From Rhodothermales bacterium (GTDB taxonomy: Bacteria; Bacteroidota; Rhodothermia; Rhodothermales; VXPQ01): a stretch of DNA of 64,000 nucleotides. Shown one piece after another: positions 8,240-30,581 of the stretch; the stretch's first letter is position 1, and every line of letters starts with the position of its first letter. Both the position numbers and the translations under genes were made by a program. The stretch covers positions 248,001 to 312,000 of the forward strand of contig OX638295.1 in assembly GCA_951812345.1 (NCBI GenBank), read 5' to 3'. The notes under the pieces were generated by a model that searched no databases, was not told the DNA's origin, and saw only the letters and a program-made list of their open reading frames with translations.

Positions 8240-8313
8240 ATCGAAGCGATAATAAATGTGGCAGAAAAGAGGGATTACGGGAAGCCCCTGTGCGAACAGG
8301 TACGAAGATAAGG

Positions 8314-8345
8314 CATACTCCGATTAAGTCCACAAGGCTCAGAGG
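8314..8345 (+). repeat. Dispersed 32-bp repeat, diverged copy
   Basis: In the gap between ruvB and the ferredoxin gene, the reverse complement of this segment lines up with the repeat family at roughly two thirds of positions (CTGAGC, GTGG, AATCGGAGTAT). It is the most diverged of the five full-length copies. Confidence 0.5.
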
Positions 8346-8385: not shown

Positions 8386-9417
8386 TTATTCGAACAGAGG
8401 TTGCGCCGGCCCGGGCGGTTTCAGCCCCAGGTGTCTGTAGGCCCGCTCCGTGGCGATGCGCCCCCGCGGCGTTCTCTCCAGAAAGCCCTCCTGAATCAGG
8501 TACGGCTCGTAGACTTCCTCGATAGTGCCTGCGTCTTCTCCTACCGAAACGGAAAGATTGTTCAGTCCCGTGGGGCCGCCCCCGAACTTTTCGATGAGCG
8601 TCACGAGGATGCGGGTATCCATGTCGTCCAGCCCGTGTTCGTCGACATCGAGGGCGTTCAGGGAGCGGTCCGCCGCCTTGCGGTCGATGCTCCCATCGCC
8701 TTCCACCTCGGCGAAATCCCTTGTCCGGCGCAGCAGCCGGTTGGCGATCCGCGGCGTGCCTCGGCTCCGGCGGGCGATTTCGAGGGCCCCGTCGTCCGTA
8801 ATCTCTATATCGAGAATATGCGACGAGCGAGCGACGATCTGCCGGAGGAGCGCCGCCGTGTAGTAATCGTACCGGAAGTCGATCCCGAATCGCGCCCGAA
8901 GAGGCGCCGTGAGGAGTCCTTTCCGGGTCGTGGCGCCAATCAGCGTGAACGGGGGAAGCGCAAGTTTGACGCTCCGCGCGCTGGGTCCCGAATCGATCAC
9001 GATGTCGATCCGGTAATCTTCCATGGCGGAATAGAGATATTCCTCCACGACGGGGCTGAGCCGGTGAATTTCGTCGACGAAGAGGATATCGCCCTCTTCC
9101 AGGTTCGTCAGGATGCCGGCGATGTTCGCCGGTTTTTCCAGGACCGGCCCGCTTGTCGTGCGGATGCCGGTAGCCATTTCTTCCGCGATGATGTACGCAA
9201 GCGTCGTTTTGCCCAATCCGGGCGGCCCGGAAAGCAACACATGGTCCAGCGTTTCGCCGCGTCGCTTGGCCGCCGTCATGAAGACCCGCAGGTTATCCTT
9301 GATTTTTTCCTGCCCGACGAAGTCGTCGAGCGTGCGCGGGCGCAGCACTTTTTCGAGATCTTCTTCGGAATGCCGGGGATTCGGCGACAGGTTCTCGGGA
9401 TGTTCGGAGCTGTTCAT
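8386..9417 (-). CDS. ruvB: Holliday junction branch migration helicase RuvB
   Basis: A 343-residue AAA+ motor that drives branch migration of Holliday junctions with RuvA and feeds RuvC. Visible features are the N-terminal [18 protein letters not shown], Walker [12 protein letters not shown], Walker B DEIHRLS, the sensor segment [19 protein letters not shown] and the C-terminal winged helix ending [15 protein letters not shown]. The length is normal and no catalytic residue is missing. ruvA and ruvC are not in the window. Confidence 0.98.
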
Positions 9418-9735
9418 GCGTATTCCTGCAATGAGGCGCCTTGCGCGGATCGTACCGGGTACCGGTCAAGATAATATTCCTTAATACCCTGCGCCCGGAA
9501 AAGTACGGACTGCGGGCCGTGAAACGGGTTCCTTTCCGTGTAAACCGCCAGTGGAAGCGGACCGGTCCCGGGTCGTTCCAGGGCGTGTCAGGGTAGGGGC
9601 ATATTAAAAATTAGGCACAATATTTGCGGTAAAACATATCATAGAGTACATACGGGTTTGAGAGAGTTCATCGAGGTGGTGATATCCCCACCTGAAAAAC
9701 ACGTTTGAAGCGCCTTTTTGGCAGTACGCCCGATT
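9418..9735. other. Divergent intergenic region between ruvB and rpoN
   Basis: About 318 bp without a gene. The rpoN-proximal half becomes AT-rich and carries the sigma-54-type promoter described separately. A short inverted pair (GGTGGGGATATC-like, around 9674-9692) lies near the rpoN start. I see no other feature. Confidence 0.5.
9613..9627 (+). promoter_or_regulatory. Sigma-54 (RpoN) promoter upstream of rpoN
   Basis: The sequence AGGCAC, then five bases (AATAT), then TTGC matches the sigma-54 consensus TGGCAC-N5-TTGC at every position except the first. The invariant GG and GC are present with correct spacing. Predicted transcription would begin near 9638, about 100 bp before the rpoN start, implying positive autoregulation. 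Confidence 0.6.
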
Positions 9736-11202
9736 ATGCTGAATCTCCAGCAAACACAGCGGCTCCAGCAAAAGCTGTCTCCTCAGCAAATCCAGTATAT
9801 CCAGTTGCTGCAGTTGCCTACCCTTGCACTCGAACAGCGTATCGAGGCGGAACTGGAAGAGAATCCCTTGCTGGAAGACACCGCGACCGAGGCCGTGGAC
9901 GTCCTGGAGGATATTGCGGAGGAGCCTGTCGAGGCGGAAAGCGAGCGGGACCCCGACGAGGAGTACGACTGGGCCGAACTGCTCGACAATACCGAGGATA
10001 TGTACGGCTACAAGGCGCGCGTCGATTACAGCCAGGAAGAGGACCGGGAACTGCCCATTCCGGCTACCGGGACGCTGATCGAGCATCTTCGGGACCAGTT
10101 GACGCTGCAGGAGCTCACGGAAGAGGAGGAAATCATTGCCGAGCAGATTATCGGTTCGATCGACGAGGACGGTTACCTGCGCCGCCCCCTCGAATCCATC
10201 GTGGACGATCTTTCCTTCAATGCCGGGTTCACGCCCGATCTTTCGGACATCGAGGAAGTGCTGGAGCGCGTCCAGCACCTGGATCCGATAGGAATCGCCG
10301 CCCGCGATCTCCAGGAATGCCTGCTGGTGCAGCTTCGCGCCATGCCCCCCGCCGTAGCCGGCCGCGACGTAGCCATCCGCATGCTTGCGGAAACGTACAA
10401 GGCGTTCACCATGAAGCATTTCGATGCGATCCGGAAGAAGCTGCGCGTTACCGGCGAAGAGCTTCGGGAAGCGTTCGACCTGATCCGTCACCGGCTCGAT
10501 CCGAAACCCGGCGAGGGCCAGTTCTCCCCCCGGCAGAATTACATCACCCCGGATTTCACGGTGGAATCTGTCGACGACGAGTTCATCGTCACGCTCAACG
10601 GACGCAATGCGCCGCCGCTGCACATCTCGCGGCAGTACCGGCAGATGCTCCAGAATATGGTGGCCCGAAAGAAGGCATCCGGATCATCTTCCGTAGACGC
10701 CGCCACGCGCAAATTTCTCAAGAGCAAGTTCGAGTCGGCGCGCTGGTTTATCCAGTCCATCCACCAGCGCCGTCATACGATGACCCGGGTGATGCACGCC
10801 ATCGTCCGCCTGCAGGAGGATTTCTTCCGGTATGGGGAAGGGCATCTCAAGCCCATGATTCTGAACGATGTGGCGGAGATCATCGAGATGGATATCTCGA
10901 CCGTCAGCCGGGTGGTCAACGGCAAATACGTGCAGACCCGGTTCGGGGTGTACGAATTGAAATATTTCTTTTCCGAGGGAATCCGGGGCGCCGACGGCGA
11001 GGATGTGTCCAACAAGGAAATCAAGGCGATCCTCGAAGGGATCGTCGACGGGGAGGATAAGGCGAAACCCTTGTCCGATCAGCGCCTGGTGGGGTCTCTT
11101 GAAGAACGGGGGTTCCGGATTGCGCGCCGGACCGTCACGAAATACCGCGAGCAATTAGGCATACCCGCAGCGCGCCTGAGGAAGGAGATAGTGGTGGGGT
11201 GA
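9736..11202 (+). CDS. rpoN: RNA polymerase sigma-54 factor
   Basis: About 488 residues from the ATG at 9736; a TTG at 9718 would add six residues. Region I is Gln-rich (LNLQQTQRLQQKLSPQQIQYIQLLQLP, the activator-responsive part). It is followed by an acidic Region II (about 40-100), a core-binding domain and a C-terminal DNA-binding part with ARRTVTKYRE, the RpoN box that contacts the -24 element. The helix-turn-helix segment DISTVSRVVNGKYVQTRFGVYELKYFFSEG is also present. Sigma-54 needs AAA+ activators, none of which is visible here. The promoter just upstream is itself of sigma-54 type. Confidence 0.97.
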   Translation: MLNLQQTQRLQQKLSPQQIQYIQLLQLPTLALEQRIEAELEENPLLEDTATEAVDVLEDIAEEPVEAESERDPDEEYDWAELLDNTEDMYGYKARVDYSQEEDRELPIPATGTLIEHLRDQLTLQELTEEEEIIAEQIIGSIDEDGYLRRPLESIVDDLSFNAGFTPDLSDIEEVLERVQHLDPIGIAARDLQECLLVQLRAMPPAVAGRDVAIRMLAETYKAFTMKHFDAIRKKLRVTGEELREAFDLIRHRLDPKPGEGQFSPRQNYITPDFTVESVDDEFIVTLNGRNAPPLHISRQYRQMLQNMVARKKASGSSSVDAATRKFLKSKFESARWFIQSIHQRRHTMTRVMHAIVRLQEDFFRYGEGHLKPMILNDVAEIIEMDISTVSRVVNGKYVQTRFGVYELKYFFSEGIRGADGEDVSNKEIKAILEGIVDGEDKAKPLSDQRLVGSLEERGFRIARRTVTKYREQLGIPAARLRKEIVVG

Positions 11203-29805: not shown

Positions 29806-29944
29806 AAAACATCCCGAAGTTTTATGAGGATCGGGATGAGCTCGACCCGGAAACGTAACGATCGCCCGGCGGAAACCCGGGCAGACGGGCAGGAAGACCA
29901 CCACACGAACCTCTGATTCCCGAAGGTTTGCGGCAGATAACTTG

Positions 29945-30140
29945 CAGGCAGGTCTCCTGGCTTGCTACGCACTACGACTTCCGGCTCTTCGTCTTGCCTT
30001 CCCATTCGCAGGAACAGTGGCGCGACGCGTCGTGACCGGTGTATCGGCGCAGCTTACAGTTGCGGGTACAGCTCCGGAATGGCGCCTGCGGCGCGCACCG
30101 GATTCCCTGTTATCCAAACCCTTGTCCGACGAATCGGGGG
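29945..30140 (-). promoter_or_regulatory. Cobalamin riboswitch
   Basis: Reading the minus strand, the hallmark segments come in order: GGGTTTGGATAACAGGGAA, TGTACCCGCAACTGTAAGC, GCCACTGT, TGGGAAGG, and the B12 box AGCCAGGAGACCTGCC at about 29950-29966. The element lies directly before the TonB receptor gene, whose expression it should shut off when adenosylcobalamin is plentiful. Confidence 0.95.
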
Positions 30141-30176
30141 CATGGAACCTGACAAGCGTATACCAAAGAACGTGAA

Positions 30177-30531: not shown

Positions 30532-30563
30532 GGGCTCCTCGAAGTGGAGTTAATCAGAGCACC
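30532..30563 (-). repeat. Dispersed 32-bp repeat, copy 3
   Basis: It shares CGAAGTGG and ATCAGAG with the family, about three quarters identical to copy 1. It ends 18 bp before the rnc start. Confidence 0.6.
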
Positions 30564-30581
30564 CTTAACATCTTCTGCGTC

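Follow-up and report, generated by a model that had tools for sequence, protein, structure and literature searches.

The window, i.e., the whole stretch of 64,000 nucleotides that was analyzed, comprises positions 248001-312000 of the single-contig genome (2.82 Mb) of an uncultured Rhodothermales bacterium. Within it rpoN, the gene for the sigma-54 factor, diverges from ruvB, and the two genes have an intergenic region of 318 bp in common. The features at the locus are listed here, with conservation given over six genomes of the genus (family f1; G000 to G005, G000 being the window's genome).

8386..9417, minus strand: ruvB, divergent neighbor of rpoN (Pfam RuvB_N/RuvB_C)
9613..9618, plus strand: −24 element, aGGCAC by sequence; GGCAC invariant in 6/6 genus genomes
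9624..9627, plus strand: −12 element, TTGC by sequence; TTG invariant in 6/6 genus genomes, C in 4/6, A in G001 and G002
9639..9735, plus strand: predicted 5' leader of rpoN, its start set by the −12 spacing (promoter geometry)
9736..11202, plus strand: rpoN, sigma-54 factor of 488 amino acids, ATG at 9736 and stop at 11202 (Pfam PF00309, PF04963, and PF04552, well above cut-off)

The RpoN protein is complete, with Sigma54_AID, CBD, and DBD all matched by Pfam and an intact RpoN box (ARRTVTKYRE), and rpoN is the only gene in the genome to match PF00309. The named near relatives of the protein are from uncultured Rhodothermales MAGs.

The original prediction placed a sigma-54-like site at 9613-9627, before rpoN, and such a site is present: these positions read AGGCACAATATTTGC, and the slightly longer 9613-9628, AGGCACAATATTTGCG, lies on the same strand as rpoN, about 108 bp upstream of its ATG. 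The exact −24/−12 spacing claimed for it was also found, the GG at 9614-9615 and the GC at 9626-9627 being separated by exactly N10, and the spacer between the two elements consisting of five bases, AATAT (9619-9623). The site had further been said to match the consensus at 14 of 15 positions; it is indeed a near-match, but that count is inflated because five of the positions are N, and against TGGCAC-N5-TTGC 9 of the 10 informative bases agree, the first T being replaced by A. Directly after the GC, at 9628, the site has a G in place of the preferred W. Promoter geometry predicts a start at about 9639, in agreement with the 9638 proposed earlier. Upstream of the site, in the region examined for a bEBP enhancer (UAS), there are short palindromes at 9449-9472 and 9559-9568. 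The predicted leader contains an AGGTGG/CCACCT hairpin (9674-9693); a folding test of the leader RNA showed nothing special (z −0.98), and an Rfam search with it gave no match. Elsewhere in the window, a cobalamin riboswitch occupies 29930-30167 on the minus strand (Rfam RF00174, 89.9 bits).

The frequency of such sites was assessed on about 460 kb of sampled sequence, together with pattern searches of the whole genome. With up to two mismatches allowed, TGGCACN5TTGCW matched the window 19 times (26.8 in shuffles) and the genome 957 times (1510 for the reversed pattern); there is no excess in either case, and a loose match to the consensus thus carries no meaning. Across the 2.82 Mb, both strands included, there are 11 copies of the strict core GGCACN5TTGC, which corresponds to ~0.0005 expected per given oriented 250-bp stretch. 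Nine of the 11 occurrences are inside predicted genes, which leaves just two that lie between genes and are directed toward one: those of rpoN and of the CD-NTase gene that heads a CBASS operon. With a sigma-54 PWM whose weights were set approximately from the consensus, the top score within 250 bp upstream of rpoN was reached by 0.3% of dinucleotide shuffles. Over some 2500 genes, about one upstream site like that of rpoN is expected by chance, and the case therefore rests on conservation and not on match strength. Dyad motif discovery over 226 upstream regions was overwhelmed by the signal of a dispersed repeat, and hexamers of this repeat are over-represented in the intergenic part of the sampled sequence; 8313-8331 and 30546-30564 are diverged copies of its end (GGACTTAATCAGAGTATCC).

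A gap-free alignment of the six genus genomes over 75 columns contains GGCAC.ATATTTG as its sole long invariant block, the size of which is that of a −24/−12 element. From the GG to the TTG of the −12 element, 12 of 13 columns are invariant, and the −12 C varies. The site reads GGGCACAATATTTGC in G003, G004, and G005, and TTGGCACTATATTTGA in G001 and G002. GG-N10-GC is intact in four of the six genomes, whereas G001 and G002 read GA, TTGA replacing TTGC at −12, a change that matters because GC ranks among the most constant parts of sigma-54 promoters. Over the same bases, these two genomes have TTGGCA-N18-TATATT, a strong sigma-70-like promoter with a crude score of 12.1 versus 7-8 elsewhere. 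Conservation in close relatives, proposed at the outset as a check on the site, thus gives a largely positive though mixed answer: four genomes keep it whole, and two keep the −24 element and lose the −12 C. An insertion in G003 has moved the rpoN promoter and leader ~520 bp away from the gene, and the site is still intact. The inserted element (~516 bp; L010/L304) has the rpoN start codon as its exact insertion point and regenerates the ATG; it ends in perfect 12-bp terminal inverted repeats, GGATGCTCTGAT and ATCAGAGCATCC, with a TATG duplication.

The other strict site precedes a type III CBASS operon (CD-NTase, HORMA, TRIP13, exonuclease, and SAVED protein), which was located in two of the genus genomes.

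L301:1028-6143 (G000:C1 about 1081227-1086342): CBASS operon in the window's genome
L302:1513-6606: CBASS operon in G004

Besides that of rpoN, TTGGCACCGTATTTGC at −118 from the G000 operon is the only strict intergenic sigma-54-type site facing a gene in that genome, and G004 keeps it as TTGGCACTGTACTTGC at −117. Control of CBASS by sigma-54, if true, would be unexpected; a full-text search of the literature retrieved no direct report of it.

In most other families of the order, rpoN is close behind another gene or lacks such a site within 350 bp upstream. In family f14, which includes Longimonas halophila, GGAA[TC]N5TTG[CT] was found 70-200 bp upstream of rpoN in 13/13 genomes, the count covering those with a non-coding stretch before rpoN (non-operonic), and it is the only block conserved across the 13 upstream regions. 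The element arises in shuffles at ~0.2-1% per genome, a figure that overstates the case because the pattern was derived from these very sequences, only GG-N10-GC having been fixed beforehand. Placement of all GGAAYN5TTGC sites gave 32 in G018 and 44 in G037, both of f14. In G037, five of the sites are intergenic and followed by a gene within 300 bp. For three of the five, the orthologue in G018 is likewise preceded by such a site; these genes are rpoN and those for a GAF-domain protein and for an exported protein, the latter without a family in a Pfam scan. G018 and G037 are congeneric, and shared descent may explain part of the common sites; the two proteins other than RpoN are only 60-67% identical between them.

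The f14 element resembles that of the window in being a conserved GG-N10-G[CT] upstream of rpoN, but its −24 element is GGAA[TC] where the window has GGCAC, and the RpoN box has SKYRK in place of TKYRE. Wherever an f14 genome has the GGAA[TC] site, the box is ARRTVSKYRK (C-termini L305-L313, L026, L027, L034, and L038), but f14 genomes with an operonic rpoN have ARRTVTKYRE; the box variant is possibly linked to the −24 preference. An outright shift in the −24 specificity of f14 RpoN (box E to K together with GGCAC to GGAAT) was considered and is weakened by four observations. RpoN boxes in f15 are similar to those of f14, without the site; Spirochaetes vary at the same box residue; a GGCAC site ahead of an apaG-like gene is itself shared within f14 (L388/L393); and in f1 a gene for an exported protein is preceded, at ~140 bp, by a conserved GGAAC site, AGGAACACTTTTTGC, in both L424 (G000) and L435 (G003). 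The last of these is a candidate for another sigma-54 promoter.

An activator had been thought necessary and none is visible in the window; two genuine bEBPs are encoded elsewhere in the genome, with Sigma54_activat scores of 238 and 233 bits, and are available in trans. One (L002, GAFTGA loop) is a response regulator of receiver-AAA-Fis architecture and adjoins a lolD-like gene. The other (L003, GAYTGA loop) is a stand-alone AAA-Fis protein without a receiver domain, between miaB and an lptE-like gene, the names of neighboring genes having been assigned by eye from translations.

Other accounts of the conserved block must be weighed. A chance match without function would be in keeping with the abundance of loose matches and with the roughly one strict upstream site expected per genome, but the site is conserved in four of six genus genomes and partly in all six, and an equivalent element lies before rpoN in a second family; this conservation largely refutes chance, which we consider scarcely credible. 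The block might instead be an ordinary sigma-A promoter, with TTGGCA as the −35 and a TATATT-like −10 18 bp downstream, its likeness to sigma-54 sites being coincidental. The fit is good in G001 and G002, where the GC of the −12 element is lost, but in G000, G003, G004, and G005 the matching position holds no good −10, and a scan of the ruvB-rpoN intergenic region (9400-9750) detected no standard sigma-70-like site. Moreover, the most conserved bases would be spacer; ATATTTG would fall there, and its conservation argues for sigma-54. The 13 genomes of f14 likewise conserve the 15-bp GG-N10-G[CT] block alone, with no second element further off, and we judge an ordinary sigma-A promoter to be distinctly improbable. 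The Bacteroidota-type −7 element of sigma-A, TAnnTTTG, is matched exactly by TATATTTG in G001 and G002, the other genomes having AATATTTG at this position. In the genomes inspected by eye, however, there is no TTG 17-23 bp upstream, and TAnnTTTG was rejected as an explanation, being without enrichment in the 226 upstream regions of G000 (4 versus 5.9 in shuffles); that it accounts for the block is very unlikely.

A different possibility is that sigma-54 polymerase, when unactivated, sits over a sigma-A promoter and thereby reduces transcription of rpoN. Negative autoregulation of this gene is known in some proteobacteria. Promoter-like hexamers do overlap the site, TTGCGG-N16-TATCAT in G004 and TTGGCA-N18-TATATT in G001 and G002. 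Those of the window's genome, however, score poorly (7.3-7.5 at best, against 12.1 in G001), none pass a standard sigma-70 scan, and the bases of the spacer region, ATATTTG, are conserved. We consider repression as the main role of the block unlikely, though by no means negligible; repression by bound sigma-54, or a second promoter, may also exist at rpoN, and sigma-54 binding may modulate a sigma-A start through the weak overlapping hexamers, including by repressing it.

The best explanation, to which we give a probability of roughly 60%, is that the block is a genuine sigma-54 (−24/−12) promoter of rpoN. The near-consensus site has exact spacing, is intergenic, and is oriented to rpoN; it is conserved in the genus and has an equivalent in f14; and the genome encodes an intact RpoN together with two bEBPs that look competent, all of which argue for this promoter. 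Counted against it are the TTGA at −12 and the sigma-70-like promoter of G001 and G002, the GGAA[TC] at −24 in f14 with a pattern set after the sequences had been seen, and the lack of such a site before rpoN in most other families of the order. A sigma-54-type site at rpoN is well supported, and rpoN probably controls its own transcription. Sigma-54 RNA polymerase would bind the site as a closed complex, which would be opened by one bEBP, most economically the stand-alone protein without a receiver domain; transcription would begin near 9639, giving a leader of ~97 nt, and rpoN would thereby feed back positively on itself. The loop would have to be primed by a basal sigma-A start, by read-through, or by inherited sigma-54. 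The original prediction, that rpoN is driven by sigma-54, is thus supported as to the site by conservation in the genus and in a second family, but the positive sign of the autoregulation is something that we only infer.

The sequences of G001 and G002 show what looks like promoter turnover. Tentatively, and with considerable doubt, we suggest that a sigma-54 autoregulatory promoter was kept, or arose independently, in two Rhodothermales families and that in two species of the genus the same bases are being converted to a promoter of sigma-70 type, the −12 C being lost and TTGGCA-N18-TATATT gained; this would be a natural example of an rpoN gene switched out of its own loop. If the sigma-54 promoter is real, the level of sigma-54 in a little-studied order would be set by feedback that requires a bEBP, so the supply of sigma-54 would itself be conditional. 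The few strict sites suggest a compact sigma-54 regulon, which is testable in cultured relatives such as Longimonas.

The sigma-54 (−24/−12) consensus is given as TGGCACN5-7TTGCT (PMC12316311). Like known sigma-54 promoters, the site in the window has GG-N10-GC, GGCAC at −24, TTGC at −12, an upstream position, and bEBPs in the genome; it differs in having A for T before the GG and G after the GC, and no enhancer site was found. The view that autoregulation of rpoN would be unusual was too strong. In a 2025 study, the sigma-54 targets predicted for several classes were enriched for rpoN itself, and the study cites rpoN as belonging to its own regulon in Geobacter sulfurreducens and in the Bacteroidetes Dokdonia sp. 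MED134 (PMC12316311); its main text does not mention Rhodothermota. No passage was found under the word "autoregulation" in the Geobacter paper (PMC2725144), and the Geobacter case therefore rests on PMC12316311. As cited there, both organisms share with the window a sigma-54-type promoter ahead of the rpoN gene, and the window differs in belonging to Rhodothermales and in having rpoN divergent from ruvB. Autoregulation of rpoN is thus already reported, including in one Bacteroidetes (PMC12316311), and the putative Rhodothermales case adds another member.
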